This document shows, piece by piece, positions 1,591 through 38,703 of a stretch of 64,000 nucleotides of DNA. The notes beneath the pieces are model-generated. The model did not search any database. It was not told the DNA's origin and worked only from the letters and a program-made list of their open reading frames with translations. Origin of the DNA: Bacteroidia bacterium (GTDB lineage Bacteria; Bacteroidota; Bacteroidia; UKL13-3). The DNA lies in NCBI GenBank assembly GCA_025454875.1, contig JALONP010000010.1, forward strand, positions 29,389 through 93,388. Direction: 5' to 3'. Each line of letters begins with the position of its first letter. The stretch's first letter is position 1. A program made the position numbers and the translations under genes.

Positions 1591-1614
1591 TTTTTGTGTT
1601 AGACTCATTCGGAA

Positions 1615-8252: not shown

Positions 8253-8260
8253 ATATTAGC

Positions 8261-8983
8261 ATGAATACAAAACTCTCAGTCAATATTAATAAAATAGCTA
8301 CGTTGCGAAATGCACGTGGCGGCAATATTCCTGATGTGCTCCTAGCGGCACTGTTAATAACGGAATATGGAGCCGATGGTATAACCGTGCACCCACGACC
8401 TGATGAAAGGCATATTCGGTACGCTGATGTTAGAGACCTGAAGCGTAAACTAACAACTGAGTTAAACATTGAAGGCAATCCTAAAGAAAAAGCATTTGTA
8501 GAGTTAGTGCTTGAAACAAAACCCGCACAGGTAACGCTTGTGCCCGATGCAAGCGGCCAATTAACTTCCGATCATGGATGGGACACGGTTGCACATCAAG
8601 GATATTTAACAGAAATCATTGCGGTGTTCAAGCGAGCTGGTATTCGTACATCTATATTTGTAGATGCAAAAACCGAAATGGTAGAAGGCGCCTACCAAGC
8701 AGGTGCCGATCGCATTGAGCTTTATACTGAAGCCTATGCAAGAGCAGCATCTCCGCATCGGGCAGAGGCGATTGCCCCATTTATAGTGGCTGCAAAAAGA
8801 GCTTCGGAACTTGGTTTGGGTATTAATGCCGGACACGATTTAAGTCTTGAAAACCTTCGCTATTTCGCCAAATCAATACCGAACTTATTGGAAGTAAGCA
8901 TTGGCCATGCACTTATTAGTGATGCTTTGTATTTTGGACTCGAACAAACGGTTCATCTGTATAAGGAGCAATTGCAATTCTAA
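8261..8983 (+). CDS. pdxJ: Pyridoxine 5'-phosphate synthase PdxJ
   Basis: The product has 240 residues, which is the usual PdxJ length. Diagnostic motifs are [17 protein letters not shown] at the start, [13 protein letters not shown] around residue 42-54, and GHDLSLENL and [13 protein letters not shown] near the end. The enzyme condenses 3-amino-1-hydroxyacetone phosphate with 1-deoxyxylulose 5-phosphate to form pyridoxine phosphate in vitamin B6 synthesis. The stop overlaps that of the convergent HxlR regulator by four bases. Confidence 0.97.
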
Positions 8984-9300
8984 GGATTGCGTTGAATAGC
9001 CTCCATGTAATCTTTTCCAAATTTGGCAAGTTGATCCAGCAAAGGAAGCGCCATTTGCCCTAAGGGAGTGAGTTGGTAAATAGGTTTACCCGAATCTGTT
9101 TTAAAAACCAAATTGCTTTCCACCAAGTCTTTTAACTCTTCGTTAAGCACCTTCTCACTCACCTCAGGTAGTTGTTTGGTAATTTCAGAAAAACGCTTGC
9201 CACCATCTGCCAATATTTTAATGAGCAATAACTTCCATTTGCCGCCAAGCATTTCGAGGGTTGTTCTAACAGGACATTGGTTACTTACTGAAGTATCCAT
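8980..9300 (-). CDS. HxlR-type winged-helix transcriptional regulator
   Basis: The gene encodes 106 residues with the HxlR signature [20 protein letters not shown] near the N-terminus and a winged-helix body ([24 protein letters not shown]). The single cysteine in the C-P-V-R motif is the redox or electrophile sensor in studied relatives. It is divergent from the NAD(P)-binding reductase gene at 9373, with 72 bp between the starts, so it probably controls that gene and itself. Confidence 0.9.
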
Positions 9301-22693: not shown

Positions 22694-23635
22694 TTAAATT
22701 TTGGGTTGTCCTCTTTGCTGAAAAACCAATTTAGGTGTTCTGTCTGTTTTAAAAACACCCCAATGCTTTTCAGGTTCCATCGGGTCAGCAGAGCCTTTCC
22801 ATTTTTCGTCAAATGCTTCAAAAAAGAATGTCAGAATATTGTTTTGAATAGACCATGCCATTAAATCTTCGTAATATATTCTTTGATTCTCTTCATTTAC
22901 ATGCTCAGTATTGATGCCAACCCCATGCGAATTGGTTGCCCATCCCGCTTCAGTTATTACTACCGGAATATGGGGATACTGTTTAGCTACTACCTGATAG
23001 TTTGCGATTGTATAATCAACCGCCTCATGAATATGCTTGTACTCCCAAACCGGATAAGTATGTATTGAAATAAAATCGATATGAGGAACTAATGGTGCTA
23101 AATAATTTAACCAAGGCACATAGTTCTCACAAAAAGTAACAGGTTGCTTCACCTGCTGTTTAACGCGTTTAGCAAACTCAATCACACGATCCACCGGAAC
23201 AAAATGATCTGTCCAATCCACACATGCTTCGTTGCCTAATGATACTGTGGAAATAATTTCAGGGTATACATTTGCCCAGTCTATTAACCGTTGAATTTTG
23301 ATGTCATTGTTTTTTTTATTTTCAATCAATTGTTCCTCCTCATATACGCCACCACCCCAAGGACACCCATGATTGTTCATTTCTGCTACAATATAAGCTC
23401 CGAGCATCAGTTTAAAACTCAACTTTTCTTGCTCAATTACTTTTATCACAGTTAATGCATGCTCGTCACAATCGTACAAGCGCAAGTAGTTCCAATGTGG
23501 TTGTAAAAGCAACAAATCTTCCTTTATTTCTTCGTAAGATGGCGTGATGCCTCCGGGTTGTTGCCCATCTCTAAAACCCGAATAACAAATTGCCTTGGCA
23601 TAAGGCAAATTAAATCGTTTAAAAAAATCGTTCAT
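22694..23635 (-). CDS. Cytoplasmic GH17-type beta-1,3-glucanase
   Basis: The product has 313 residues and no signal peptide, so it is predicted to be cytoplasmic. The GH17-like (beta/alpha)8 pattern is clear. The likely acid/base is E136 in SLGNEACVDW and the nucleophile E229 in VVITEAGWATN. The aromatic FFFEAFDEKWK block near the C-terminus is also shared with family members. It most resembles the lipoprotein GH17 at 28446. It is the last gene of the operon and its start overlaps the stop of the previous gene by one base. It probably hydrolyses imported beta-1,3-gluco-oligosaccharides. Confidence 0.88.
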   Translation of the reverse strand: MNDFFKRFNLPYAKAICYSGFRDGQQPGGITPSYEEIKEDLLLLQPHWNYLRLYDCDEHALTVIKVIEQEKLSFKLMLGAYIVAEMNNHGCPWGGGVYEEEQLIENKKNNDIKIQRLIDWANVYPEIISTVSLGNEACVDWTDHFVPVDRVIEFAKRVKQQVKQPVTFCENYVPWLNYLAPLVPHIDFISIHTYPVWEYKHIHEAVDYTIANYQVVAKQYPHIPVVITEAGWATNSHGVGINTEHVNEENQRIYYEDLMAWSIQNNILTFFFEAFDEKWKGSADPMEPEKHWGVFKTDRTPKLVFQQRGQPKI

Positions 23636-24564
23636 TAAAATTTCAATCGTTCATTTTTATCCCATAATCCCCAATAAGCACCAACGTCTCCTTCTGGACC
23701 CACTTTCCATGATTCATCAAAAGACGCAAAATAGAAACTTTCAATTCCGTTCAAGTGACACCAATTTTGACAATCAATAAAATACCGCATGGCATTTTCA
23801 GGAGTTGCAACGGATGCCTTAAATGCTCCACCTTCGCTAGGCCAACCAGTTTCTGTTATAATCACACGTTTGCCTTGGCCTGCATTTTTTGCAGACTCAT
23901 ACATGCTTCTCATGTGTTCAAAAGAATATTCGATAGGACATCCTTCCCAATAAGGATAACAATTGGTTAAAATAACATCACATATTTCTGTGATTCGTGG
24001 CCTATGTGAAAACTCATAATAGGCATCCACATAACCAACTGGAATATGTGGAATTGCATCTTTAACTCGTTGAATATAACTAAGCAATTGTTCTTCGGTT
24101 AACTCCTTTCGGTACATTACTTCATTGCCAACCGCTGCTACATCAACCAACCCTTCCTTTGCCATTGCAATGAGGGCTTCTATTTCTTGCTCATTTAATT
24201 CCAAATCATCCCCAAGCCAAGCACCCACAAGTGTTTTCATTCCATGTTTTTTGGCCATCCTCGCTACATGTTCATTGCCTTCGATACACGAAAAAGAACG
24301 TATCCATTTGGCATGCGGCTTGAGTATTCGAATGCGTCTTTCCACTTGCGCTTCTGTAATGATGGAACCTGGCTTTTGTCCATCTTCATAAATGCTAAAG
24401 CAAATGCCATGCATTCCCCTTTGGAGTGTTTGTTGCCACAACGCTCGTAAATCACTTGACGAAAGTTCGGCATACTGTATTGGAACATACGATTGATGCT
24501 GATGCCCATGAGTAAAATTGGCTTGCTGTTCGTTGGTAAAAAAATGACCTTCTCTATATGACAT
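23635..24564 (-). CDS. Cytoplasmic GH17-type beta-1,3-glucanase
   Basis: The gene encodes 309 residues without a signal peptide. Catalytic candidates are E148 (AAVGNEVMYR) and E238 in RVIITETGWPSEGG, the latter an exact match to the GH17 signature. Its C-terminal half, NAMRYFIDCQNWC...FASFDESWKV, aligns closely with the GH17 domain of the MFS fusion encoded just upstream, so the two probably arose by duplication. Cytoplasmic location suggests action on imported oligosaccharides. It begins 10 bp after the stop of the fusion gene. Confidence 0.9.
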   Translation of the reverse strand: MSYREGHFFTNEQQANFTHGHQHQSYVPIQYAELSSSDLRALWQQTLQRGMHGICFSIYEDGQKPGSIITEAQVERRIRILKPHAKWIRSFSCIEGNEHVARMAKKHGMKTLVGAWLGDDLELNEQEIEALIAMAKEGLVDVAAVGNEVMYRKELTEEQLLSYIQRVKDAIPHIPVGYVDAYYEFSHRPRITEICDVILTNCYPYWEGCPIEYSFEHMRSMYESAKNAGQGKRVIITETGWPSEGGAFKASVATPENAMRYFIDCQNWCHLNGIESFYFASFDESWKVGPEGDVGAYWGLWDKNERLKF

Positions 24565-24574
24565 GACCTAACAA

Positions 24575-26929
24575 TTATTTTTTAAACTTAAACTGTTCAT
24601 TCTTATCCCACAATCCCCAAGAGGTTCCCACTTTGCCCTCTTGTACCACTTTCCAAGATTCGTCAAATGATGAAAAATGAAAAAGCTCAATATTGCCTTT
24701 TCTTGCCCATTCATGTGAATCGATAAAATAACGCATTGCATTTACCCTTGATGGAACGGCATTGTCCACAATCTCACCAAAACTTGGCCAGCCCGATTCT
24801 GTTACAATAACTTTCTTACCCTTACTAGCAGCTTGGGTTATTTCAAACATGTTTGAAAGATAAGAAACGGAATAATCAATAGATGCCCCTTCCCAAAAAG
24901 GATAAAAATTACATAAAAGTAAATCGCATGCATCAACCAAGTTAGGCCTGTCTAAAAACTGATAGTACGCATCTACATAACCTACTTTGATTGAACTCGG
25001 AATGGATTTTCGAACCCGTGTGATATAATCTATCAATTCCGCTTCGGTAATTTCGCCCCTATGCAGCACCTCATTTCCAACAGCTGCAATAGCCACCAAT
25101 CCTCTGTTCGCAAGCTGAATCAATGAATTGATTTCACGTTCGTTTCGTTCTTTATCATTACTAATCCAGGCGCCCACCATTGTTTTAATACCTTTATTAC
25201 TTGCAATTTCAGGCACCAATTCATTTCCTGCTGTACAAGAAAATGTTCTAATCCATTTGGTATGTGGTGCAATAATTTCTATCCTTCTTTGAATTTGTTC
25301 TGCTGATAAAATATCACTTTCCTTTTGCCCTTCAACGTAAGGGCTGAAACACAATCCATTCATCCCTAAATTAAATTGCGTTGAGAATAATGCTTCTATT
25401 TCCGCTTCACTTTTTTGGCTATAGTCGATTCCTATTATTTGATTCAAGTTATTGTTGTGCAGTAATGAACTTAATTTACCTGATAAATAGCCAGAAGATT
25501 GTATCTTCATAGGTGACTTTCTTTTATCAAGTATACTTCTTACCTCCTTTGCTTTGGCTTCATCAATATCATAATCTTTCATTGCCCATAATGCTGTTAA
25601 GGTTCCCAATATGGGGATTCCAACAAAGAAAATCCGCAACCAGAACATTGTTTCATCTGTTTGTGTAGGCGCATTGGATTGAAAGCTTACCAACGAAAGA
25701 ATTAACCCGCTTATTAAGCCAGCTACTGCTGTACCAAATTTTACCATCCACCAATAAATAGCCCCCAAGCTTCCTTCCCTTCTTTTACCCGAATTTAACT
25801 CATCAATATCGATTACATCTGATGTCATCGACATCATTAATGTAAACAGACTTCCAATACCAAAAGAAAAGAATGGGAGTGCGAATAGAAATAGGTAAGG
25901 TTTACCCGGAACAAATAGCAAAAAGAGTAAAATATAACCCACTATTGAAATACCCTGCGAAAGTAAAAATGCCTTCTTTTTTCCCATTGCTTTAGACATT
26001 CGCGCTACAATGGGTATTACCAGTACTGTTGTGATAATAGCACCTATGCTCCCAAACAATGTTGGCCATAATCCAAAACCCTCTTCATTTCCTTTAAACA
26101 AATAATATTTGATAATAAAGTAAGAGAAGCCCGCAGTTGTTTGAAAAGCATTAAAAATTAAAAACGTTGCAATGCAAATTTTCCTGAACGGTTCAATTTC
26201 AACCGATGCCTTTAATCCTTCTTTGATCTCACCAAAGCTGTTTAAGATTCCTTTTAAATCAATCGGACTGTAATTTTCATTAACCGTAGACTTGCTCGGT
26301 ATAAAAAATGCTGGAATAGCAGCCAAAATAGCACAACCAATGGCAACATACACAGCTAACGTTCTAACGGCAACTTCACTCGATGGAAACAGTGTTTGAT
26401 CTCCCATAATTACCCAAAACCATGGTGCAATTACCCACGCTAACTGACCAATGAGTTGAGAGGTAGCCATAATATTTGTTCGCTCATGAAAATCATCACT
26501 CATTTCATAACCCATGGCTACATAAGGAATACTAAATATGGTGAGTCCCGAATAAAAGATTAATGAAATTCCTAAAAAGTAAATAAAATTATACGTTACA
26601 CCATCTTCAACATAGAGTTGCCACATCAATGCAAACGAAATTCCCAAGATAATCGCTCCGATTAACACGTATTGTCTTCTTCTGCCCCATTTTGACTTGG
26701 TGTTATCGCTAACGTAGCCCATCACAAGATCAAACAATGCATCATAAAACTTTGGAATGAAATAGGTTAAGCCAAGCAGTAACCCACTAAACCCGAGTTT
26801 TTCTACCAGTACAACAGTAAAAATTCCCAACGCAGCAGGAAACATTTGATTGGCTAACATTCCGAGTCCAAATGCAACCTTTTGCCCCATTGGAACTTTG
26901 TGTGATAACGCTTGACTGGCCATATTCAT
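24575..26929 (-). CDS. MFS/GPH-type sugar transporter fused to a GH17 domain
   Basis: The protein has 784 residues. Residues about 1-465 are a twelve-helix transporter of the GPH/MFS_2 type, with loop motifs YVSDNTKSKWGRRR and PYVAMGYEMSDDFHERTNI. A linker (about 466-500) leads to a complete GH17 domain at about 500-784, with E620 (AAVGNEVLHR) as acid and E711 (VIVTESGWPS) as nucleophile. Even-helix topology puts both ends in the cytoplasm, so the glucanase would meet substrate as it emerges. There is no frameshift or stop at the junction. The start is ATG at 26929 or 26923. It sits in the glucan operon between GH30 and GH17 genes. Confidence 0.92.
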   Translation of the reverse strand: MNMASQALSHKVPMGQKVAFGLGMLANQMFPAALGIFTVVLVEKLGFSGLLLGLTYFIPKFYDALFDLVMGYVSDNTKSKWGRRRQYVLIGAIILGISFALMWQLYVEDGVTYNFIYFLGISLIFYSGLTIFSIPYVAMGYEMSDDFHERTNIMATSQLIGQLAWVIAPWFWVIMGDQTLFPSSEVAVRTLAVYVAIGCAILAAIPAFFIPSKSTVNENYSPIDLKGILNSFGEIKEGLKASVEIEPFRKICIATFLIFNAFQTTAGFSYFIIKYYLFKGNEEGFGLWPTLFGSIGAIITTVLVIPIVARMSKAMGKKKAFLLSQGISIVGYILLFLLFVPGKPYLFLFALPFFSFGIGSLFTLMMSMTSDVIDIDELNSGKRREGSLGAIYWWMVKFGTAVAGLISGLILSLVSFQSNAPTQTDETMFWLRIFFVGIPILGTLTALWAMKDYDIDEAKAKEVRSILDKRKSPMKIQSSGYLSGKLSSLLHNNNLNQIIGIDYSQKSEAEIEALFSTQFNLGMNGLCFSPYVEGQKESDILSAEQIQRRIEIIAPHTKWIRTFSCTAGNELVPEIASNKGIKTMVGAWISNDKERNEREINSLIQLANRGLVAIAAVGNEVLHRGEITEAELIDYITRVRKSIPSSIKVGYVDAYYQFLDRPNLVDACDLLLCNFYPFWEGASIDYSVSYLSNMFEITQAASKGKKVIVTESGWPSFGEIVDNAVPSRVNAMRYFIDSHEWARKGNIELFHFSSFDESWKVVQEGKVGTSWGLWDKNEQFKFKK

Positions 26930-26933
26930 TTAT

Positions 26934-28445
26934 TTAATGTTTTAGAATAATTGTTTGCAAAGCCTTTGAATCAATTGCAATACGTTTAACCTCATTATTG
27001 ATATTGATTGAAACAGCAAATCGTTCACTTGTTGGGTTGAACAACGCTATCACAATGCTTCCATCTGGATTCTGTACGGCTGTTGCCATTACCTCCTCAT
27101 GGTTAATATCACACCCAATTCTTACAGCTCCCGGACGCATGAACTTGCTAAAATGTGCCATTACATAATACAGGGGCGTGTAGTAAACTTCGTCCTTTTC
27201 TGTATCAACAATTACTGGAGCAACACACCAGTTTTTAAACCAGTTTGGCCCTCCTTGCCTATCTAATACCATATTCCAATCAATCCAACCATGCACATAA
27301 TTGTTTAAACACCCAATAATATCCGTTGCGTATCGGTTAACTGGAGCATACTTGGGATGCAAATGTTTGTCTTGTTCACTTGCCCAATCCCAACCCCAAT
27401 CTGTTGCTTCCTTTTTCCAATACCAAGCATCATCGTTCCATTTTGGAACTTCAGAATCGATGCACCCTTCCGTTTCAATGAGGTACTTGTTAGGTGCTTT
27501 TGTATGCGCATATTGCAATGCTTCTGGAAAATAATCGTAGGTACTTTCATACCAATGTATGGCGGTTCCTGCAAAATATGTTGACGACTTTTCATCTCTG
27601 TACATTTCATCAACCCACTCCTTTAAACCTGCTCTGTTTTGATCATAACCCAAAATATGAACATTACCCCACCCATCGTTTGCTAGTTTTGGACCTAAAT
27701 GGTTTTGAACAAAATCAGTCATTTCCTTAGGAGAAAACAAGGTGCTTTCCCAATTATTTCCATTCCCGTGGGGTTCATTTATTACGGTAACACCCCAAAT
27801 ATTGATGCCTTCTTTTTGGTATGCAGTTAAGTATTTTGAAAAATACAATGCAAATGCATCATTGTACTGCGGTAATAATTTACCTCCAACAAAACTTTTG
27901 TTGTCTTTCATCCACGGTGGAGCAGTCCATGGTGACGAGATGATTTTAAAGCCTTCCTTCGAAATCTTTTGTGCATCGTTAATCATTGGAATCAAATCTT
28001 GCAGATCTTCTGCAATAGAAAAGTGGGTAAGTTCCAAATCATTTTCAGCTTTAGCATAGGTATAATTGTCCAGCGAAAAATCACATGAAGCGATATGTGT
28101 TCGGGTTAAAGAATACCTTGCGCCCTCATCGCTAAAATAAGCTTCTAATACTTTTCTTCGGTTTTCAACGCTTAACTTGTTAAGCACGTAGGCAGAAGCT
28201 TCGGTAAAAGATCCTCCAAATCCAACAATTTTTTGAAATTGCTCATCCGGGTTAATTTGAATGATTAATGATTTGTCAGCAGGATTAAAATCTTGGATTA
28301 AGGTTAATGCATTTCCCCTTTCGGAGGTTTCATATACATCCATCGTCATTTTTTTTGCATCATTACATTGAACACAAACAGCACATATCATCCCAATGAT
28401 AATAGTATTTAAAGAATGTAAATGCCGTTTAGTCTTCATCATCAT
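26934..28445 (-). CDS. GH30 family glycosidase lipoprotein
   Basis: The product has about 503 residues; three successive ATGs at 28445, 28442 and 28439 are possible starts. The signal peptide ends in VCVQC, so Cys27 is probably lipidated. The GH30 pattern includes GFGGSFTEASAYVL, SPWTAPPWMKDN, the acid E224 in VINEPHGN, and nucleophile E326 in LIETEGC. Family members with this layout are beta-1,6-glucanases or beta-glucosidases; in this locus removal of beta-1,6 branches from a laminarin-type glucan is the likely task. It abuts the GH17 lipoprotein gene directly. Confidence 0.9.
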   Translation of the reverse strand: MMMKTKRHLHSLNTIIIGMICAVCVQCNDAKKMTMDVYETSERGNALTLIQDFNPADKSLIIQINPDEQFQKIVGFGGSFTEASAYVLNKLSVENRRKVLEAYFSDEGARYSLTRTHIASCDFSLDNYTYAKAENDLELTHFSIAEDLQDLIPMINDAQKISKEGFKIISSPWTAPPWMKDNKSFVGGKLLPQYNDAFALYFSKYLTAYQKEGINIWGVTVINEPHGNGNNWESTLFSPKEMTDFVQNHLGPKLANDGWGNVHILGYDQNRAGLKEWVDEMYRDEKSSTYFAGTAIHWYESTYDYFPEALQYAHTKAPNKYLIETEGCIDSEVPKWNDDAWYWKKEATDWGWDWASEQDKHLHPKYAPVNRYATDIIGCLNNYVHGWIDWNMVLDRQGGPNWFKNWCVAPVIVDTEKDEVYYTPLYYVMAHFSKFMRPGAVRIGCDINHEEVMATAVQNPDGSIVIALFNPTSERFAVSININNEVKRIAIDSKALQTIILKH

Positions 28446-29708
28446 TTATCTTTTAAGAGGGAGTTCAACATTTTTTAATAACTCTACTTCATTGCCGTCA
28501 TGCGTCTTTACAACGGGATTTCCATCTCTTGTTAAGTTGTTAAAAACACCTTGGTCCACTTTTCCCCATAACGCATATTTGGCTTTACCCTTAAGGGTAA
28601 ATAAACCAAAATGATTTTCGGAGCCCCGCGGATTACGGGCATCTTTCCATTGCTCATCAAATGCTTCAAAATAAAAGCAAGTAATTTTTTCTTTATTGGT
28701 CCATGCCCTCATTAATTGGTAATACCTTGCTGATTTAAACTCATCACACGCTTTTGATCCTTCATTACCATAAAAGCCATCGGATTGGGTTGCCCAACCT
28801 GTTTCGCCAATATGAATGGGCTTGTTGATTCCAATTGACTTCATGTAATTTTTTACATTTAAATACTGGCTTTTAGCATAATTGAGTGAACGCACCATTA
28901 AGCTGTCTATCTGTACTTCTTTTGATAAACTTTCTTCATTGCTATCCACGTACCAAAACGATGGATTATAGTGTGTATCGTGCATTGGGTACGTATGTAT
29001 CGAAACGTAATCAACTGCTTGGTATAATTTGGTTAAATCTTCTACATGGTATGATGAATCACCTCCCCCCCAAGATGCAAAATTATCAGAAGATGTGATC
29101 CAAATGTCTTTTGGTAACCCATTCGCTTTTTTGAGTTTCTGTAAATAATTTACCCATTTTAATATAAATGCAGGTGTCACGTAATAGCTAGTTGCCCACT
29201 TTACCATGGCTTCATTACCTACCGAAATTATTATAACAATATGGGGATACTGATTTGCCAATTCAACTGCTCTGCGAATTTCTGCAGCATTCGCTTGTTC
29301 ATTCTCTCGTTGATGATTTGGTTGGTTTTGGGTCCAAGCATTTTCACAATCAATCCATGCTCCCAGCATAACATACATTTCAAAACCCGGTTTTAACTGC
29401 TGCAATTGGGTAATCGCTTTTAATACATTACGCACTTCATCAAACTGTGTATTGTATGTACGAATGAGTTTAATGCCCATTGCATTCAAAATCATGAGGT
29501 CTTCCCTAATTTGCTCAATGCTTGGTTGAGAGTCGCGCGTGATTGTACGATAACCTCCATAACAAATGGCCAAATAATTTGAGTCACCCAAAATTTCAGA
29601 AGCTGTTTTAGACTGAGTAGGTGAATGCGGGTTTGTGTTCGGCCCACAACAAGTTAGCACAACCAAGAAGAATAGAATCAAATGATATGGTAAGCCGACC
29701 TTTTGCAT
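28446..29708 (-). CDS. GH17-type beta-1,3-glucanase lipoprotein
   Basis: The gene encodes 420 residues. The signal peptide ends VVLTCCG, giving a lipid anchor at Cys20 or Cys21. The GH17 catalytic pair is E166 (ISVGNEAMVKW) and E302 (IHIGETGWATQ). The FYFEAFDEQWKDARNPRGSENHFG block matches the cytoplasmic paralogue at 22694. A C-terminal tail of about 40 residues follows the domain. It is probably in the periplasm or on the outer surface and attacks beta-1,3-glucan chains. Its end touches the GH30 gene and its start is 4 bp from the phosphorylase gene. Confidence 0.9.
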   Translation of the reverse strand: MQKVGLPYHLILFFLVVLTCCGPNTNPHSPTQSKTASEILGDSNYLAICYGGYRTITRDSQPSIEQIREDLMILNAMGIKLIRTYNTQFDEVRNVLKAITQLQQLKPGFEMYVMLGAWIDCENAWTQNQPNHQRENEQANAAEIRRAVELANQYPHIVIIISVGNEAMVKWATSYYVTPAFILKWVNYLQKLKKANGLPKDIWITSSDNFASWGGGDSSYHVEDLTKLYQAVDYVSIHTYPMHDTHYNPSFWYVDSNEESLSKEVQIDSLMVRSLNYAKSQYLNVKNYMKSIGINKPIHIGETGWATQSDGFYGNEGSKACDEFKSARYYQLMRAWTNKEKITCFYFEAFDEQWKDARNPRGSENHFGLFTLKGKAKYALWGKVDQGVFNNLTRDGNPVVKTHDGNEVELLKNVELPLKR

Positions 29709-29712
29709 GGTG

Positions 29713-32700
29713 TTACTTCAACATTGATTGGTTTACGTATACAGTAATTTTAACAACGTCTCCTGTTCGGTTAAAAATTTGCATACTCACTTTAACGTCT
29801 AACTCAAAAGCAGGTTGCTTGATGATTGTACCATCTTGTTTTTCAATTTCCATATAATGCTCATTGGCTAAACGGTATACGATTGGTACTTGGCAAAATG
29901 TAAAACAGAGTGACCCAATTGGAGGTTCGAATATTTTGTGTTCTTTATGAATCGTAACATAACGGAATACGCGATCGCTTGTTGTAAACTCATCTTTACG
30001 TAATAAGCATGGGTTAAAATGCAAACGTCCATCCAGTACAAAAACACCCAACTCACCAAACCTACTTAAAATATCTTCTTTCACTTGGCCAGTCATGCCC
30101 GGTTGTTGCGCACCTTTGTTGCTTGGTGTATGTGAATAAGGGTCTGTAGGAAATGCTCCGTACAATTCAGGCGATTTATGTACTCCAACTCCCGCATTGA
30201 TTTCATAATAATGCTCCAATAGTCTACCGATTACTTCTGCAGATTCGTTAGCTTCGATAGCATGTAAACAAACCTCCTGAACGGCCAGCTGTAGTTTGGA
30301 AACCATATGCCAATAAATAGACCCAAGACCTTCGTATCCATAAAAAGTTCCCGAGCGACCTGTAAATGATTTATGATCAAAAACCATTTCAAATGCATCC
30401 AAAAGATGCTGTTTTTCTTCTTTGCCTATTATTCCATATTGCGCTTGGTCTAACCCATTTAATGCTGCACTTAGGTCAGCAGCATTTTTGAAATTTCCAC
30501 TAAAGTGGTAATCGCCCAATACGTCTTTTTCCACAATTGACTTATCACGGGCGTCAAGCATTTTTTGGATGAGTGTAGACTGCTTGATTATGGATTGTGG
30601 AATTTTATTTTTCTCTAAAAACTTCGGGAGCTGTTTGTTCGGATAAAGCAAATAACTGTATTGATCCTCTCGGAAAAGTGCACTTTGTTTCATACTATCC
30701 AGCAACTTGAGTGCCTCTTTGGGTGCCAGATAACCAGAGCTCAGCACTGCAACTTGCCCTTCCAACATTTCACTTAAATGGGTAATGCGAATTTGGTTAT
30801 TGTGCTCAATACTCATCAAATTGTACGCGTGGTACATGTGATCGTTACGCTTGTTGGTGTGAATGGTATGCTCAATAAATGCCAGGCTTGACTTGATAAA
30901 TGCCTTCAGCCTACGATAGGAGATGGTTCTTTTTTCGCCCCAAAAAGTTTGCTTATAAATATGTTCCCTGTAATCACTACCTGCTTGCCCAAGGCGGTCA
31001 ACAATTTCTTTTCGTTGAGAGTTATTCACTTCCCCTTTTAACAAAAATGCATATTCATCAAAAATGGCATGTATCTTTTTAAAGAAGATGATTAACTCAT
31101 TTGACAACGGAATACGTTCGTCATCGTTTTGGTTGATGAGTTTATCAAAAAACACCATAAACCTTCTAAGGTAATAGAGTGTTACCATCGAAACGCCATT
31201 TCCAACAAGGGCATTGTTAGCGTCATTCCATTCAGGTCTTTGTGTATTCATCCAAATACCACCACCCGGAATAAAATTAGAAAGTTTAGATAAGACCGTT
31301 GCCAATATCTTTTCGATGAAATTAACGGTATAAATTTCATTGTTTTGCGCTGTGAGTAAGGCAGCATCTGAGCCAATAGCTTCACGCTTTTTGCGAATTT
31401 CTCTATCCAGCTTTTCGTCAAACTCGATTGTATCTTTTGCGTTATGTACAATTTGGCTGTATGTTTTAATTTTGTATGGAACATTGGCATACACAAAAAG
31501 GTCTTTGTGAAATTGGCTTTGCAATTGACCAGGATAATACCTTTCATTAATCTCCAATAATTTGAGCAGGTAAATAATTTGGTGATCGCCCCAGTAACCA
31601 ATATACGACCATGGATTGTCTGGCTCTACCGTTTCCCAATCAAATCCGCCTTTGGTTAAACGATAGGGATTGTATCCTTCAAAAGTTGATGCATTTAAAA
31701 ACTTATGAATCATGCTTTGGGTAAAAGCTGGGTATGAAATGGCAAGCGCTTCCCAATTTTGAAAAATATCTCTCCAGTTTCCTTCGTAATCTAAAATTTT
31801 AGAATGGTCGACTGCACTTCGTGTATTGATAGAAAACTTATTCCATGGCCTACTTGGATCACCATGCCTGCGGCTAAATTTGAGTGGCATGTACTCGATG
31901 CAGAGCCTTTTGAAGTGACTATCATTGACTTTGCTGTAAATATCAGACAACTCAAAAACAGTTAAGGTATCGTTCAAACCGGCTAACAATGCTTGGTGCT
32001 TTTGGTATACTTTTCTGTTTGAAGCAGCGATGAATTTAATTAAATCTCCTTTTTCAATTTGATAATTAAAGTCAAAAATCCCACCGCGCATAATATTGAA
32101 AAGGGTATTGGAAAAATGACGTGTGTCTCGGTATACATCAGCTGATAATTGAATTCCATCAGATGATGCATTTAGTTCCATTAGCCTTTGAGAACCTAGT
32201 TGAATATCAGCTTCAATTTGATTGGCTAGTTGCTTATTGCTTTTGATTTCCTGAATAAGTGCAACAATATTTGCCTGACTCTGGTTTACATCTGCTACAA
32301 TCACCCATTTTTGTTGGCCTCCGGGAGCAAGTGCAATTTCCTTGTTTACAAAATATGCTCCGCGTTCGGCTTTAACATCCTCTTCTTGGGTAATCGGTTG
32401 CTTTTTTCGAAACGCATCAAGTTGCAAAGAAGAAAGTAAATAAGCAGGATTATCCAATCCCATACTCCAAGCAATATTAGCCATTAGTGCTTCACTTGGT
32501 TCCGCTTTGTCTACTATAATGGCGCTGAGTGCAAAAATTCCCAAACCCGAGTCAGCGTCTAATTCATTGCGTTTATATGCATCAACTAAAATACTTGTTG
32601 AGTTTTGCAAATCGCTACTTACACCATCGGGCATGATGTTTTGGATACCATCAAGAATATTAACTTGGAGGGTAGTATTGCCTTTATTTTCTAAAGACGA

Positions 32701-33165
32701 TTTACGAACAAACCCATAAATATTACTTGAATTCCACTCATACCTGAAAGTGAGCGCAAAATTGTGATTGATTTCTTCGAAGATGATTTTATTGCCAATC
32801 GCACTTTTGTAAAGATTTCTGGTGATATTGTATGCACCTTGGTTGCGTTCCGAAAATGGCTCCCAAACCTGTACTTCACCATTTTGGATAATTTGAAAAA
32901 TGGATTTGGAACCCGTAACATCAAAAGATTCTGTAATCTTATCTGCCGTATAATATGGAAAAAGTGCATACTCTGCACTTTTACGACCAGCCGAAATACC
33001 GCCATTGCTTGATATGAACATCCAATGATGAGAATCACTAACAATGCTCATAAAAAATGGACGAATCTGATCATGGTTTGTTATGCAAAAGAAGTTTTCT
33101 CCTTCAATTTTGAGTCGCTTAATTTCTACTAACGATTCTTGTTTCACTTGTTTTTGAGCTGACAT
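29713..33165 (-). CDS. Large GH94/GH149-like beta-glucan phosphorylase
   Basis: The product has 1150 residues and no signal peptide. The likely general acid is D466 in EGNWRDIFQNWEAL, the motif shared by GH94 and GH149 phosphorylases. Near the C-terminus GRSGTFYGYEGLGSIYWHM and the VGVHKSPELYGAFPTDPYSHTP block lie around the phosphate-binding site. The length is far above cellobiose phosphorylase (about 800) and fits GH149 beta-1,3-glucan phosphorylases. It would convert cytoplasmic beta-1,3-gluco-oligosaccharides plus phosphate to glucose 1-phosphate, saving ATP. GH149 rather than GH94 is my inference from length and the laminarin context. Confidence 0.82.
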   Translation of the reverse strand: MSAQKQVKQESLVEIKRLKIEGENFFCITNHDQIRPFFMSIVSDSHHWMFISSNGGISAGRKSAEYALFPYYTADKITESFDVTGSKSIFQIIQNGEVQVWEPFSERNQGAYNITRNLYKSAIGNKIIFEEINHNFALTFRYEWNSSNIYGFVRKSSLENKGNTTLQVNILDGIQNIMPDGVSSDLQNSTSILVDAYKRNELDADSGLGIFALSAIIVDKAEPSEALMANIAWSMGLDNPAYLLSSLQLDAFRKKQPITQEEDVKAERGAYFVNKEIALAPGGQQKWVIVADVNQSQANIVALIQEIKSNKQLANQIEADIQLGSQRLMELNASSDGIQLSADVYRDTRHFSNTLFNIMRGGIFDFNYQIEKGDLIKFIAASNRKVYQKHQALLAGLNDTLTVFELSDIYSKVNDSHFKRLCIEYMPLKFSRRHGDPSRPWNKFSINTRSAVDHSKILDYEGNWRDIFQNWEALAISYPAFTQSMIHKFLNASTFEGYNPYRLTKGGFDWETVEPDNPWSYIGYWGDHQIIYLLKLLEINERYYPGQLQSQFHKDLFVYANVPYKIKTYSQIVHNAKDTIEFDEKLDREIRKKREAIGSDAALLTAQNNEIYTVNFIEKILATVLSKLSNFIPGGGIWMNTQRPEWNDANNALVGNGVSMVTLYYLRRFMVFFDKLINQNDDERIPLSNELIIFFKKIHAIFDEYAFLLKGEVNNSQRKEIVDRLGQAGSDYREHIYKQTFWGEKRTISYRRLKAFIKSSLAFIEHTIHTNKRNDHMYHAYNLMSIEHNNQIRITHLSEMLEGQVAVLSSGYLAPKEALKLLDSMKQSALFREDQYSYLLYPNKQLPKFLEKNKIPQSIIKQSTLIQKMLDARDKSIVEKDVLGDYHFSGNFKNAADLSAALNGLDQAQYGIIGKEEKQHLLDAFEMVFDHKSFTGRSGTFYGYEGLGSIYWHMVSKLQLAVQEVCLHAIEANESAEVIGRLLEHYYEINAGVGVHKSPELYGAFPTDPYSHTPSNKGAQQPGMTGQVKEDILSRFGELGVFVLDGRLHFNPCLLRKDEFTTSDRVFRYVTIHKEHKIFEPPIGSLCFTFCQVPIVYRLANEHYMEIEKQDGTIIKQPAFELDVKVSMQIFNRTGDVVKITVYVNQSMLK

Positions 33166-33271
33166 GAATGGGTACTTAATTTACCTTATTATTTTTTGAG
33201 AGTTAATTTTTGTAGCGTAATTATTTATGCAAATGGGTACTTGTTTTTTCATGATTACGCTTTACGCATCA

Positions 33272-34084
33272 TTATTTAAACTTGTATACCCTAACATAAT
33301 CAATAGACATGGTACCTGGAAATGGGGTATTGTCATTGGGTGGGCCTCCAAAATTTCCACCAACTGCAACATTGAGAATCATAAAAAATGGTTGGTTAAA
33401 TACCCATTCACCTTTAACTTCTGAAGGAGTGATTCTTCTATACAAATAACCATTTACAAAAAAGTCAATTTGACTTTCGTTCCATTCCACAGCATAAACA
33501 TAAAAATCAGTATCGAATCGGCTGTTTTGAAGTGCATAAGGTGTAGAGATAGCTTCACCACCTGAGTATCCAGGTCCGTGAATTGTACCATATGTAATAT
33601 TGGAAAACTTCCCTTTTTGCTCCATGATATCAATTTCACCGCACTGAGGCCAGCTCACACTGGTAATATTGTTTCCCAACATCCAAAACGCAGGCCACAT
33701 ACCCGCTCCGGTTGGTGTTTTAATGCGCGCTTCTATTTTACCATATTGTTGGGTAAATATTCCCTGTGTTTTTATTCGTGCAGAGGTATAACCCGAACCT
33801 GTTTTTCTTGCCGTGATTAGTAAATTACCTTTACCATCTAAGGATACATTCTGAGCATTGTTCGTGTACGTTTGAAGTTCATTGTTTCCCCAGCCGTTTT
33901 GGCCTGTACCCAAATCATAGGTCCATTTTTCAGCATTAGGTGCAATTCCAGAGTCACCTTCAAACTCATCACTCCAAACCAATTCGAAATTTCGTTTAGG
34001 TAAGGTTTGTACCGGCTCAACCTCGCAACTTACAAACACGGTAACTGCGATTGCCATCAATGTTATTTTATTTATATGCTTCAT
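33272..34084 (-). CDS. GH16 laminarinase-type lipoprotein
   Basis: The protein has 270 residues with a lipobox (VFVSC, Cys20). The GH16 core is complete: catalytic motif E150-I-D152-I-M-E155 in CGEIDIMEQKG, preceded by GMWPAFWMLG and followed by the HVY/AVEW-type strand. The extra Met in the ExDxxE form is typical of endo-beta-1,3-glucanases. It probably makes the first cuts in laminarin-like glucan at the cell surface or in the periplasm. It sits between the glycan-binding lipoprotein and the phosphorylase in the operon. Confidence 0.95.
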   Translation of the reverse strand: MKHINKITLMAIAVTVFVSCEVEPVQTLPKRNFELVWSDEFEGDSGIAPNAEKWTYDLGTGQNGWGNNELQTYTNNAQNVSLDGKGNLLITARKTGSGYTSARIKTQGIFTQQYGKIEARIKTPTGAGMWPAFWMLGNNITSVSWPQCGEIDIMEQKGKFSNITYGTIHGPGYSGGEAISTPYALQNSRFDTDFYVYAVEWNESQIDFFVNGYLYRRITPSEVKGEWVFNQPFFMILNVAVGGNFGGPPNDNTPFPGTMSIDYVRVYKFK

Positions 34085-34118
34085 ACATTCAATTTTTAAT
34101 CACTAATACACCTGCTTT

Positions 34119-35540
34119 TTACTTGTAGAAATAAATATTGTCGAGAATAAAATTAGGCCCGCCTGTTATAATAATTGCGCCAATATTGCCCTTCTGATTT
34201 AAGATTGCTCCATTGAGCGGTATATCAAAAGATTTCCAAACTCCAGTTTGAAATCCAGACAATGTTGTTCGTAAATCTTTATCATCACCTTGCGGATTAC
34301 CTGTATTTACATCTGTTTCAATAATTCCGTTTGCACCAATATCTCTTATTTGGATACCAATACTTGCTGCAGCATTTTCTACGTATGCGTCAATATGCAA
34401 AAATCCAAGCGTTGAGGCATCAATTGGATTTTCTGTGAACATGATTCCTGTATAATTATTGGTACTGTATTGCAGCACATTTCCAGTACTTGTGGTCAGT
34501 ACTTCGGTTACCGTAGTAGAACCTCCGAACCCAGGAGTAAAATTGCTTTCGGTAGCATTCACATAGGCATCGCTAAAAATTGATTTCACGTCAACTTGCG
34601 GTCTGGTAGGCACTGGCGCACCTGGCAAATCTCCTTTCGACTCAATAATAAGCTTACCTCTTGCAGGTACACCTTTTACAGTTGCGGTAACCTCAGCTGT
34701 TCCTTGAGCTACTACAGTTACAACACCCTTTTCATTCACTTTTACTACGGCCGTATCCGAGCTATTAAATTGATAGTACGCTGCTGATGAAATTACTTTT
34801 ACATCTTGCCCATTAACCAAATTAAATACATGGTTTAAACCTGACACATTGATAGATGAACCAATAAAGGATTTAACCGTGGTGGTTTGTCCATCCAAAA
34901 TGCGTGATGATGGATTTCCAACAGTTCCTAATTTTTCAAACTTGATTTCATCAAACCAAAGGGTATAACCTAAGCCACCTGTGGTTTGTGTGCCAGCAGC
35001 AAACCAAAAAACGCCTCTTTCATTTACAAGTATTGATGGATCCGGAATCGGAACAATCACCTTTGTCCAGTTGGTTCCAACATTGATGTTTTGAATGGCA
35101 ACTTGGTTTTTATCGCCAAGGTAATCGATTCCATAACCAACATTACCCAATTCAGTTCCTGTTGATGCCTTCACATAAAAGGTGAGTGCATCATATCCTG
35201 TTAGATTCCTGCCAACGCCATCCACTCTGAAGATTGCCCCTGCGTAAGCACCTGTTGGATCCGAATCATTGGGTACATCTATTCGAATGGATGCATTGCT
35301 TTGGTATCCTTCTTTCTCATCTACAGAAAAAACATCCGGTTTTGCATCAGCAAATGGGAAATAGAAATTGCTACCCAAACCAATAAAGTTATCGGTAAAT
35401 ACTTCAGCAGTTCGAGGGAAAGAGGGCAATACTGCGTCTTCCGACAATTTACGTTCGCAGCCTAATTGAATCATTACAACAGCAGTTATCAAACTGAACA
35501 ACGTTGCACTTTTGCCTTGAATATTCATTTTCGTTTTCAT
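34119..35540 (-). CDS. Glycan-binding lipoprotein with Big2-like domain
   Basis: The product has about 473 residues (ATG at 35540; 35528 also possible) and a lipobox (MIQLGC). Residues about 45-205 are a carbohydrate-binding-like beta-sandwich (YDALTFYVKAST ... LWFDEIKFEKLG). Residues about 215-305 resemble a Big2 immunoglobulin-like domain (YQFNSSDTAVVKVNEKGVVTVVAQGTAEVT). Residues about 310-473 share the D-V-x-SIFSDAYVNATESN start and FILDNIYFYK end with the modules of the T9SS protein at 19990. It has no catalytic motif, and it fills the place of the surface glycan-binding protein of a polysaccharide-utilisation locus. Confidence 0.8.
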   Translation of the reverse strand: MKTKMNIQGKSATLFSLITAVVMIQLGCERKLSEDAVLPSFPRTAEVFTDNFIGLGSNFYFPFADAKPDVFSVDEKEGYQSNASIRIDVPNDSDPTGAYAGAIFRVDGVGRNLTGYDALTFYVKASTGTELGNVGYGIDYLGDKNQVAIQNINVGTNWTKVIVPIPDPSILVNERGVFWFAAGTQTTGGLGYTLWFDEIKFEKLGTVGNPSSRILDGQTTTVKSFIGSSINVSGLNHVFNLVNGQDVKVISSAAYYQFNSSDTAVVKVNEKGVVTVVAQGTAEVTATVKGVPARGKLIIESKGDLPGAPVPTRPQVDVKSIFSDAYVNATESNFTPGFGGSTTVTEVLTTSTGNVLQYSTNNYTGIMFTENPIDASTLGFLHIDAYVENAAASIGIQIRDIGANGIIETDVNTGNPQGDDKDLRTTLSGFQTGVWKSFDIPLNGAILNQKGNIGAIIITGGPNFILDNIYFYK

Positions 35541-35559
35541 ATATCAGGATTGAACTTGA

Positions 35560-38500
35560 TTAGTTGTTAATATTAATTTGTACATAGGTTCGTATTTCCC
35601 ATTCATTGCCATTCGGAAAACCAATTGCTCTTGGATCAGCAACAAACTGACCGAGTGGATTCAGTGAAGTTGTGGGTGCATACCTATTTGAATATTGATC
35701 CAATGTGCGGTATGTGGTGCGAATACCAAGTTTGGTTCCCGGCATCATAAACCAATCGGGCTTGCTTACCTCTATTGATAAATCGCCAATAAGTTGAAGC
35801 GGAAAGGTTTGGTTAAAATCGCGGTGGTAATCAAAAGGCCCCCAATCATCAATTCGTGCAATGGTAATAAGTTTCAACTTTTTGTAAATAGTGCGTACAT
35901 CAATCCCATATCGTTGAATGGTTCTGGTATCACTTCCATTTGCTTGTCCATTTCCACAATACATATTTCCAATCACACCAAAATGTGGTCTCAACTTGGA
36001 AACCATTCTCACATTTACTTCCCATAAATCTTGGGCAGGTGCTGAACCTGGGAAAACGAAAGTGGTACGACCGTTTCCTAAGATACCAATTGCCGCATCT
36101 TGCACTGTTGGTAAATGCCTAAATACAAAACCTGTGCTCATTGCAAATTTGGCATCTTCCATTCGGTCATTGTCCCACTCATACATCCATGTTGCAGGAG
36201 TTGGATCAAAAGTAAGTAAGAGTTCTCCTGCCATTGTTTCCCTGTTTCCTCTTACCGAAAAAGGATCATCTAAGATATTGCGTGGGCGAGCAGGAGCAGC
36301 AAATTCAGGACCTATCGGACCTACGAGTGGTTTTTGATACAAGAAGTTTGGTGCAACTTGAAACTTCCCAATATTATAGGTAAAGCCAGTAAGTGCATTG
36401 TACATGTTACCACTTCCAATATCTTTAAGCACCCATCCTGTAAACGTTTTGGTTTGATCAACTCCGCCATTGGCAACCAAACCCATATACGATGCAAGGC
36501 CATACCACCTGATTGCGCCAAATGAATATGTGAACTTTACTTTTCCACCAAAATTATCTGTAGTTTTTATTTTATCCTCGTAAACAATGCCATCTTCCTC
36601 CATCTGAAAAGCCCTTCCGTTCAATGGTTGTCCACCCCAAATACCACCAACATCAAATGTGAAACTTTCCATTTTTTTACCAATCACAAAAGTTAGCCTT
36701 CTGGTTTTGGGAACGGGCACTGCAAATGAACTTTGAAGATTGGTTCGTTGTACCACATCTTCGTGGAAGATACCTGTAAGGTCTAAGCCCGCTACTTTCT
36801 TGCTATACTTAATTAAGAATGCGGGGTTGGCTCCCCACCACAATTCAGGTCCAAATGCAACTTTCAATCCTTGAAACTTTCTCTTGCCTTCTATTTCGGC
36901 TCCAAAAGGTGCTATACCGTTGTAAATATCAATATTGGCTCCATAGTTTGCTTCTGGGTACAATCCAAAAAAATCGCCTTCATAACCCCAATGGTAATGT
37001 CCTGTGCGGTAAAAACCTTTCACTTTAAAGTCTCTTCCATCCCAAGTATAATCAGCTTTATACAACTGAATTCTATTATTATCTGAAATTTGCACCGGAC
37101 CGTTAGGGGTAGATACCGTTACTGGGCGTCCCCTGTTTTCATAAAAAATTTCATCAATAGGTTTAGTGGCAACATTTCCTAAGATGTTAAACTGCACGTT
37201 CGCTCTTACATTGGGTGCAGGCCGGGCAGTTACACCAATATTAAACGATTCCATATGGTCAAAACCGAGTGCATTGGGATACGTTGTTGGTGTTGATGAA
37301 CTTGCAGTTGCTGGCGTAGAAATGAGGCTTCCTCCTGTTTGATAAGTATTAAAATTGGCTTGTAAATTACTTAAATACAATTTGCCCTTTTCTTTCGACT
37401 CAAGTGCTGCTTTATCACCTCTTGCTCTTAGTGAAACATCTGCAATGGAAATTGCATTGAGGGTTGTTGTCACAGATTCTTGACTTGAAGCGTATGGATT
37501 GATTTGGTGCACCCGCTGCAACGCATAATAAGCAGCTCTTGGATAAAGTTCATAAATACCACGCTCATTTGTTTGTCCTTTTGCACAAATCCCAAACCAC
37601 TCTTCGTTCATGTTGTTTTCGCCATTTACAAAATCATTGCTGTATCCTCCATTCGACCATGAGGCGGTAACATCGTGCTCTTCCAAATTCAAGGTTTGCC
37701 CTGTTTTCCACCAGCCATCACTAAATTGAAAAGTAAAACCTCCCAAACTATTGTTGTTTTTACCCATTCCATCAGCATTGTTGTATATCTCTTGCCAATT
37801 ACTTACCAAAACCTTTGCTTGGTATTCTTGATCTTCTTTGTTGGCTCTCGTATTGTATGCATCCGAACCAAATTCGGTGAGCAATACAGGCATGTTTAAT
37901 TCTGTTTTCACACGTTCATACAAATCAGTGAACGTCATTCCACGATAACAATTGATGCCTAGGATATCAACATCTTTGCACTCTTTCGCAATAATTTCGG
38001 CAAATAACAAATCGCCATTGCAAATTGCTATCGGGTGGTTTTTATCCAACTCCTTTGATTCTTTTGCGGCAGTATTAAACAGCCTGTACAAATGGTATGC
38101 ATCTTTGGTGGAGTTCCGATCGGCAAATGGAATATTTTCTGTTTCAGCTCCTCTCCAAAAAAGTCCGTAGTTGTTTTCATTACCCAATAAGAAAAGCAAA
38201 ATGCCGGGTGTTTCTTTGTACTCCAAAATCATTTCTTTGGTTTCTTTGAGTACAATTTCTTGCACTAATGGATTAGAATAATCTGTATTGGGTTCCCATT
38301 TGCCATTAATGGTTAATCCATACCTACCAAACGAATAATTTAGCATGGTGTAAATACCATACTTCTCATAAATATACTTCACCCATCTTGCAGGAACACC
38401 TGTGTACTGGCGAATTGCATTTACGCCCATGTTTTTGAGTAGAGGCATTTCATAATCCAACGCAGCCATAATTACATCATCTGATTGTTTCCATAAACTG

Positions 38501-38703
38501 TAATTGTAATTGGTACCTATCGGAAAATAATCCCAGTTCATTCCGTTCACAAAGGTTGGCTTGCCATTAACAGTGAGTTTAAATCCGTTACCTGATTGAA
38601 CAACTTGTACTTTTTCATTTTGAGCAAATGCGAAAAGAGGAGCAACTACCAACAAGCAATGAAGCAGTAATTGGCGTATGTGGTTTTGATTGTTTCTTAG
38701 CAT
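35560..38703 (-). CDS. Glycosidase (GH2-like TIM barrel) fused to outer-membrane beta-barrel
   Basis: The protein has 1047 residues from the ATG at 38703, which gives a proper signal peptide (ending FAFAQ); a longer frame to 38781 adds unlikely residues. Residues about 30-405 form a clan-A glycosidase barrel with NGMNWDYFPIG, the acid E176 in FLLGNENNYG and the nucleophile E277 in VLLTEFGSD. From about 440 to the end are many alternating amphipathic strands with aromatic edges and a final strand TYVQININN, as in a large outer-membrane barrel. So a periplasmic or surface enzyme is joined to a possible pore. It is the first gene of the glucan operon, which has no SusC/SusD pair. Confidence 0.82.
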   Translation of the reverse strand: MLRNNQNHIRQLLLHCLLVVAPLFAFAQNEKVQVVQSGNGFKLTVNGKPTFVNGMNWDYFPIGTNYNYSLWKQSDDVIMAALDYEMPLLKNMGVNAIRQYTGVPARWVKYIYEKYGIYTMLNYSFGRYGLTINGKWEPNTDYSNPLVQEIVLKETKEMILEYKETPGILLFLLGNENNYGLFWRGAETENIPFADRNSTKDAYHLYRLFNTAAKESKELDKNHPIAICNGDLLFAEIIAKECKDVDILGINCYRGMTFTDLYERVKTELNMPVLLTEFGSDAYNTRANKEDQEYQAKVLVSNWQEIYNNADGMGKNNNSLGGFTFQFSDGWWKTGQTLNLEEHDVTASWSNGGYSNDFVNGENNMNEEWFGICAKGQTNERGIYELYPRAAYYALQRVHQINPYASSQESVTTTLNAISIADVSLRARGDKAALESKEKGKLYLSNLQANFNTYQTGGSLISTPATASSSTPTTYPNALGFDHMESFNIGVTARPAPNVRANVQFNILGNVATKPIDEIFYENRGRPVTVSTPNGPVQISDNNRIQLYKADYTWDGRDFKVKGFYRTGHYHWGYEGDFFGLYPEANYGANIDIYNGIAPFGAEIEGKRKFQGLKVAFGPELWWGANPAFLIKYSKKVAGLDLTGIFHEDVVQRTNLQSSFAVPVPKTRRLTFVIGKKMESFTFDVGGIWGGQPLNGRAFQMEEDGIVYEDKIKTTDNFGGKVKFTYSFGAIRWYGLASYMGLVANGGVDQTKTFTGWVLKDIGSGNMYNALTGFTYNIGKFQVAPNFLYQKPLVGPIGPEFAAPARPRNILDDPFSVRGNRETMAGELLLTFDPTPATWMYEWDNDRMEDAKFAMSTGFVFRHLPTVQDAAIGILGNGRTTFVFPGSAPAQDLWEVNVRMVSKLRPHFGVIGNMYCGNGQANGSDTRTIQRYGIDVRTIYKKLKLITIARIDDWGPFDYHRDFNQTFPLQLIGDLSIEVSKPDWFMMPGTKLGIRTTYRTLDQYSNRYAPTTSLNPLGQFVADPRAIGFPNGNEWEIRTYVQININN

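Follow-up and report, generated by a model that had tools for sequence, protein, structure and literature searches.

How might a member of the Bacteroidota take up a beta-glucan when the operon for degrading it encodes neither SusC nor SusD, the pair from which glycan uptake in this phylum is usually predicted? The question is raised by positions 22694 to 38703 of a 64,000-nucleotide stretch (the window, positions 29,389 to 93,388 of contig JALONP010000010.1, assembly GCA_025454875.1) from Bacteroidia bacterium of the GTDB lineage UKL13-3. Nine minus-strand open reading frames (ORFs), read from 38703 to 22694, form a real operon, with gaps from the first gene to the last of 19, 34, 106, 4, 0, 4, 10, and -1 bp. 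A preliminary description of this DNA had reported nine same-strand genes with gaps of 0 to 106 bp; the nine genes were confirmed, but the last two overlap by 1 bp. We give a probability of about one in two to the reading that the operon is a glucan system without SusC and SusD, with the first gene product (P0001), a putative surface lipoprotein (P0002), and a glycoside hydrolase (GH) family 16 protein (P0006) as its entry port. The earlier reading of the operon is partly supported.

The operon encodes three GH17 proteins and a fusion of an MFS_2 transporter with GH17, a GH30 protein, a GH16 protein, a GH149 phosphorylase, a lipoprotein-like protein with a Big_2 match, and P0001, which joins a TIM barrel to a predicted beta barrel. 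Catalytic motifs were found in the GH16, GH17, GH30, and clan GH-A domains. The phosphorylase, P0004, belongs to GH149, with a score of 1753.8 bits against NCBIfam model NF058639 (cut-off, 1150) and an alignment of residues 14 to 1149 with PDB 6hq6 (E = 0). The best solved relatives of P0006 are beta-1,3-glucanases and laminarinases. The GH17 protein P0005 aligned over residues 10 to 417 of 420 (E, 3e-169) with PDB 6fcg, which was deposited as a GH17 family glycoside hydrolase and is taken to be FbGH17A from the account of a solved GH17A in PMC6246565. P0002 had no match to a carbohydrate-binding module (CBM) family and no solved relative at E 0.01. The gene content that had been read as that of beta-1,3/1,6-glucan utilization, large phosphorylase included, was thus recovered, and the enzyme set is predicted from its domains to fit beta-1,3/1,6-glucan as substrate.

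The source genome (2.98 Mb) is 99.97% complete. Profile searches for Plug, SusC, and SusD gave no match on the operon's contig (C8), and the operon does not contain the SusC and SusD genes of a canonical polysaccharide utilization locus (PUL). Across the whole genome there were 26 Plug matches (25 above the cut-off) and 23 SusC matches (1 above the cut-off), and SusD, searched with the two models PF07980 and PF14322, is represented by a single gene that both models found. The sole SusC above the cut-off adjoins this sole SusD on contig C6 (locus L144, G000:C6:92500-112000), together with two alpha-amylase (GH13) proteins, a starch-binding protein, and proteins tagged for the type IX secretion system (T9SS), which identifies an alpha-glucan or starch locus. 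The absence of SusC and SusD from the operon was therefore as described.

The most unusual product is P0001. Its roughly 600 C-terminal residues have no Pfam or NCBIfam match. The AlphaFold2 model of the whole protein (81 aligned rows) has a TIM barrel followed by a beta barrel, with a predicted local distance difference test score (pLDDT) of 77.5, and modeling of the barrel part alone (101 rows) gave a pLDDT of 80.8 and a predicted template modeling score (pTM) of 0.79. In the predicted model 24 membrane strands were assigned, with two short hairpins taken as loop; if these were included, the total would rise to 28 with no change of sides. Loops average 22.7 residues on one side and 5.2 on the other, and the mean standard deviation of loop length is 1.06 on the long side versus 0.04 on the short side. 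An even number of antiparallel strands with short turns opposite long loops is the pattern of an outer membrane barrel, and the 50 rows that Foldseek and VIA-align list for the P0001 barrel are outer membrane barrel entries. The listed fold matches include sucrose porin, maltoporin, AlgE, and TonB-receptor barrels, and the alignments with FimD and PapC cover the whole barrel. LamB, ScrY, ChiP, AlgE, and the ushers FimD and PapC share the predicted fold and its short turns and long loops, but identity to sugar porins and other outer membrane barrels is 6 to 13% in the listed fold alignments, and P0001 differs in its 24 predicted strands and in its fused glycosidase. P0001 lacks the N-terminal Plug domain of a TonB-dependent transporter: there is no Plug match in Pfam, and the TIM domain occupies the N terminus.

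The first Foldseek matches of the TIM domain are the GH158 and GH157 laminarinases. In VIA-align, GH2 glucuronidases tie with GH158 and GH157, and therefore the exact activity of P0001 is only predicted. The sole Pfam match of the protein is PF02836. The pair of catalytic glutamates, an acid/base Glu after Asn and a nucleophile Glu, is invariant in 81 of 81 rows; such a pair on a TIM barrel is common to clan GH-A and therefore not specific to GH158. The enzyme domain is predicted to be an endo-beta-glucanase of clan GH-A, nearest to GH158 and GH157. BuGH158 (PDB 6pal) and GH158(Pro) (PDB 9oro) match the domain only marginally in sequence, and BuGH158 has an immunoglobulin-like C-terminal domain and lies in a PUL with SusC/SusD, whereas P0001 has a predicted outer membrane barrel.

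Because long variable loops stand opposite short, nearly fixed turns, and both barrel ends lie on the short side, the enzyme was placed in the periplasm, and the model accordingly predicts that the glucanase domain sits on the periplasmic side. The same order of parts, an N-terminal passenger and then a C-terminal barrel, is found in type V secretion, and P0001 might instead expose its glucanase on the outside of the cell. Loci of this kind usually encode a surface endo-glucanase (PMC7157763). This explanation appears improbable, as the GH domain meets the barrel on the short-turn side and the GH16 homologues already carry a signal for surface export. Type Va barrels have 12 strands and type Vd proteins have a POTRA domain and 16 strands, whereas 24 strands are predicted in P0001, which has no POTRA match in Pfam.

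Acidic residues that follow the lipid cysteine mark surface-exposed lipoproteins in Bacteroides (PMC6222051). At least two acidic residues at positions +2 to +6 were found in 46 of 61 P0002-type and 50 of 70 GH16 lipoproteins but in only 1 of 25 GH30 and 1 of 37 GH17 lipoproteins. One acidic residue or more was found in 60/61, 66/70, 12/25, and 9/37, respectively. These counts were made over related sequences that are not independent. They cover the ORFs matched by a lipobox pattern of our own making (61 of 103 P0002-type, 70 of 98 GH16, 25 of 45 GH30, and 37 of 50 GH17 ORFs, locus L089 excluded), which missed P0002 and P0007 of the window itself, both read by eye. The acidic signal suggests that capture and the first cuts take place outside the cell and that debranching and trimming take place inside. 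The GH30 of Muricauda was predicted to be cytoplasmic (PMC13188888), unlike the periplasmic reading of its counterpart here, P0007.

The fusion of enzyme and barrel is conserved. A database search with P0001 scored 7,999 candidates, of which 5,251 passed E 1e-3, and the loci sampled were the best 80 of 586 genome_contigs loci plus 20 from 33 matching Flavobacteriaceae genomes, picked for long intact matches. Enzyme and barrel form one ORF in 100 of these 100 loci (100 distinct sequences), a count that rests on best matches and is therefore biased toward near, intact relatives. One of the other 13 Flavobacteriaceae genomes is that of a locus already among the 80 (L076). In the 12 examined later, seven have the fusion as a single ORF (L202 and L207 to L211, with L211 reaching the contig end, and L206, apparently the contig of L081 again, of length 20615), whereas it is cut by contig ends in three (L171/L205, L199, and L203/L204), and has a broken frame in two (L200 in G194 and L201 in G152), through assembly error or decay. 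Near relatives showed neither a barrel without the enzyme nor an enzyme without the barrel. Within 58 related genomes, the source genome included, P0001 is present at full length in 9, all of which also have GH149, as does one further genome; seven weak matches in this set are shorter GH-A proteins (open frames of 424 to 455 amino acids). Records with P0001 are labelled Flavobacterium, Chryseobacterium, Chitinophagaceae, Cytophagales, Saprospiraceae, and Bacteroidales, with single records labelled Chlorobiota, Kapaibacterium, and Thermoanaerobaculia.

The gene order around the fusion is also conserved. In 66 of the 72 genome_contigs loci with at least 1.5 kb of downstream sequence, a P0002-type lipoprotein gene begins no more than 400 bp past P0001 (the 400-bp rule misses six, at least one of them, L047, through overlap of ORF starts), and all 61 loci with 6 kb or more downstream have GH16 there. 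The 20 Flavobacteriaceae loci have the lipoprotein in 19 and GH16 in all 20. Of the 59 genome_contigs loci that extend 9 kb or more downstream, 53 also carry GH149, GH17, GH30, or MFS; the six that do not are L039, L040, L042, L047, L048, and L058, the last of which has GH3. The lipoprotein and GH16 are nearly constant and the other genes variable, and therefore P0001, the lipoprotein, and GH16 constitute the core. This arrangement resembles SusC/SusD in that a barrel gene is followed by genes for a surface-type lipoprotein and a surface-type glycosidase, with P0002 in the place of SusD, but P0001 has no Plug match and the lipoprotein has no SusD match. In three loci labelled Bacteroidales (L060, L072, and L086), a more distant GH149 (47 to 50% identity to P0004), GH17, and MFS lie upstream rather than downstream of P0001.

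It was considered that the operon might be a broken PUL that had lost SusC and SusD locally. This was rejected, because SusC was found in the examined flank in 0 of the 80 genome_contigs loci, including 0 of the 50 with at least 8 kb upstream. As a control, a hidden Markov model (HMM) built from the 26 receptors of the source genome found 14 of 18 SusC proteins of other genomes and missed 4, and a SusC HMM trained in turn on those 18 recovered 17 of the 26. Among nine distinct genomes with P0001 (G060 to G063 duplicate G016, G034, G021, and G002 and were counted once), three (G002, G024, and G064) gave no match to SusC at E 1e-60 or to SusD-like_3, SusD in relatives being searched with PF14322 only. 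The operon is present in G002 and G024, and in G064 (L023) at least through the GH17 lipoprotein gene, where the stretch ends. A fusion kept in 100 of 100 loci and three relatives without SusC or SusD-like_3 make an alternative route plausible.

Several observations weigh against P0001 as a port. Pore width, plugging by loops, and sidedness come from the model, in which some loops have a pLDDT below 50. Classical outer membrane barrels usually, though not universally, end in an aromatic residue, but 70 of the 81 P0001 rows terminate in Lys or Asn. The enzyme domain is only weakly GH158-like by sequence (E, 0.0047 with the single sequence and 2.7e-4 with a profile); for scale, a true GH158 protein, from genome G035, gives E 1.8e-103 to 9oro. 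P0001 could also be an accessory outer membrane enzyme whose barrel is only an anchor, with glucan entering through a TonB-dependent transporter encoded elsewhere (SusC/SusD in genomes that have the pair near the module, a different receptor in this one). The source genome has as many as 25 further Plug matches, any of which could carry oligosaccharides, and 32 of the 34 other P0001 genomes (drawn from 35 of the 80 loci, without L057) have a SusC above the cut-off somewhere, among the matches listed. SusC-SusD lies upstream on the same strand in 5 of the 20 Flavobacteriaceae loci (L181, L186, L190, L194, and L195; detected with both receptor HMMs and confirmed with Pfam in L186 and L195), with SusD separated from P0001 by one or two genes, and in L210, from one of the 12 further genomes, SusD and the end of a TonB receptor likewise lie upstream. 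This coexistence makes an accessory role the main rival, although we consider it unlikely on balance. A predicted barrel of 24 strands with long, well-conserved outer loops far exceeds an anchor, and the three genomes without SusC and SusD-like_3 and the 50 long upstream flanks without SusC also speak against it. In 13 of the 20 Flavobacteriaceae loci a gene of about 930 to 940 codons lies directly upstream of P0001 in place of SusC/SusD; genes of that size and position in L044 and L052 encode Y_Y_Y-LuxR regulators by Pfam. Thus, the proposal in the preliminary description that the fusions form an alternative route gains from the conservation of the P0001 fusion and from the relatives without SusC or SusD-like_3, but the module would substitute for SusC/SusD in some lineages and supplement it in others. 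The comparison of gene order that it had called for likewise returned a conserved core, with SusC/SusD nearby in some Flavobacteriaceae.

If P0001 is an entry port, P0002 and P0010, a T9SS-tagged protein encoded beyond the operon, would capture glucan at the surface, where the GH16 enzyme would cut it, and the chains would then pass by diffusion through the P0001 barrel, with no need of TonB energy. At the inner mouth of the pore, the TIM domain would cut the emerging chains so that they could not diffuse back, a hydrolysis trap. The lipoproteins P0007 (GH30) and P0005 (GH17) would debranch and shorten the chains in the periplasm, and the MFS-GH17 symporter, the cytoplasmic GH17 proteins, and GH149 would complete uptake and yield glucose and glucose 1-phosphate. 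The inner membrane symporter with its GH17 domain would repeat the principle of P0001. A bolder proposal, which we offer tentatively and rate somewhat below even odds, is that this is a third glycan route over the Bacteroidota outer membrane: a 24-strand catalytic pore whose own endo-glucanase, at the periplasmic mouth, ratchets beta-glucan inward by cleavage under a surface lipoprotein lid, with no requirement for SusD or TonB energy, and which is retained in Flavobacteriia, Chitinophagales, Cytophagales, Saprospirales, and Bacteroidales, where it goes by labels such as "glycosidase," "GH2," or hypothetical protein. "Selfish" uptake is said to depend on SusC/SusD (PMC6246565). If the proposal is correct, rules for finding PULs that require SusC/SusD overlook a widespread beta-glucan route, and energy-free, hydrolysis-trapped import could be tested directly in cultured Flavobacterium species. 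Since laminarin is a major marine carbon pool, such a route would bear on carbon-cycle models.

Enzyme-transporter fusions suited to both membranes, as claimed earlier, are present in the sequence. The second, P0003, has MFS_2 at residues 20 to 457 and GH17 at residues 699 to 782, where the catalytic Glu pair is present (GNEV and TESG motifs), and its symporter part presumably has the 12 transmembrane helices of its family. This is the architecture of FbGH17b, an N-terminal major facilitator superfamily (MFS) transporter and a C-terminal GH17, with no essential difference. Most of the 120 best relatives listed for the GH17 domain are MFS fusions of about 780 amino acids. In the sampled loci, 3 MFS ORFs are fused (L032, L062, and L070), 21 are separate, and 23 are cut at the locus end; 18 separate ones remain after removal of two distant MFS proteins (24% identity) and of L198, a repeat of L010. 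Fused ORFs are longer and more often cut, and 3 versus 18 is therefore not a frequency. The idea that the two fusions form a constant pair was rejected, because MFS and GH17 are fused in some loci and separate in others. The MFS-GH17 fusion was already published in Formosa in 2018 (PMC6246565), and its earlier presentation as part of an alternative route is not supported in that form.

Clusters resembling the operon are also known. The laminarin PULs of Formosa (PMC6246565) and variant B of Flavobacteriia (PMC6298971) share with it GH149 or GH3, GH16, GH30, an endo-acting GH17 lipoprotein, and MFS with GH17 (fused in Formosa). The Formosa PULs adjoin TonB-dependent receptors and SusD-like proteins, and variant B was analyzed as a SusC/D PUL, whereas the operon here has neither. 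GH149 clusters without susCD are already in print (PMC5827456), and the laminarin cluster of Muricauda lutaonensis, for which the section that describes it names no SusC/SusD, shares the GH17 lipoprotein, GH30, MFS, GH17, GH16, and GH149; a LuxR-annotated first gene is present in many clusters of this type (PMC13188888). A cluster lacking SusC/SusD is thus less exceptional than had been supposed. The conserved "GH2" of the Muricauda cluster may be the P0001 family, PF02836 being the only Pfam match of P0001, but PMC13188888 assigns it no barrel or transport role. No fusion of a glycosidase with an outer membrane barrel of the P0001 kind was found in the literature searched, which extended neither to subscription papers nor to preprints.

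A module with a barrel and a glycoside hydrolase could also export or remodel the cell's own beta-glucan, in the manner of PgaA/PgaB or Pel. Export of poly-N-acetylglucosamine (PNAG) uses a barrel in such a pairing. Phosphorylases are reversible. The hydrolase pairing in PNAG export is described in PMC5933820. Export is nevertheless very improbable here, as no glycosyltransferase domain occurs in the nine operon proteins and the laminarin PULs of Formosa with GH16, GH17, GH30, and MFS are induced by laminarin (PMC6246565).

One related genome, G035, has GH149 and GH16 but no full-length P0001. At positions 1515 to 9027 of its locus L196 (G035:C20:340000-359900), the stand-alone GH158-type protein mentioned above lies beside two unassigned, barrel-like secreted proteins (579 and 663 amino acids, ending in Phe) and a CBM30-like protein. 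The 20 kb searched gave no SusC-like score beyond one of 14 bits, and the two secreted proteins have no detectable homology to the P0001 barrel. If both are barrels, the locus is possibly a split counterpart of P0001, with the same parts as separate genes.

Table 1. Features of the operon and its neighbors (positions in the window)
Feature	Position	Strand	Description
P0001	35560..38703	-	Signal peptide, clan GH-A TIM domain, junction helix, and predicted 24-strand outer membrane barrel
P0001 signal peptide	38623-38703	-	Read by eye
P0001 TIM domain	37447-38622	-	
P0001 junction helix	37381-37446	-	
P0001 beta barrel	35563-37380	-	
P0002	34119..35540	-	Lipoprotein (LGC-ERKLSED, by eye) with Big_2 match; predicted surface glycan-binding protein
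P0006	33272..34084	-	GH16 lipoprotein (C-EVEPV), endo-beta-1,3-glucanase type, ExDxxE motif; predicted surface
P0004	29713..33165	-	GH149 beta-1,3-glucan phosphorylase, predicted to lie in the cytoplasm; signal peptide not seen
P0005	28446..29708	-	GH17 lipoprotein matching PDB 6fcg; predicted periplasmic
P0007	26934..28445	-	GH30 followed by a C-terminal beta sandwich; predicted beta-1,6-glucosidase, probably in the periplasm; lipobox read by eye
P0003	24575..26929	-	GPH-family (MFS_2) sugar:cation symporter fused to C-terminal GH17 domain
P0009	23635..24564	-	GH17, no signal peptide (by eye)
P0008	22694..23635	-	GH17, no signal peptide (by eye)
P0011	21926..22651	+	NrtR/AraR-type regulator (Nudix and winged helix-turn-helix), convergent to operon
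P0010	19990..21819	-	T9SS-tagged; repeats akin to those of P0002; likely binds glucan outside the cell as a partner protein

The longest ORF of P0001 begins at a TTG at 38781, and the ATG at 38703 yields the signal peptide. P0011 matched the NCBIfam NtrR model below its cut-off. An NrtR-type regulator adjoins the same operon in L010, L020, L023, L028, and L197, and a P0010-type T9SS repeat protein adjoins NrtR in L020, L023, L028, L197, and L198. P0010 and P0002 have repeats in common. The retention of the regulator and P0010 beside the operon in relatives suggests one regulon; thus, P0011 is likely the regulator of the operon, and the regulon likely reaches beyond the nine genes to P0011 and P0010.

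Rfam and tRNA searches of the window gave no match. Elsewhere in the window, a 465-amino-acid ORF on the minus strand (58747-60144) pairs FTCD_C (residues 11 to 190) with Peptidase_M78/IrrE (residues 319 to 390), a pairing that looked unusual.

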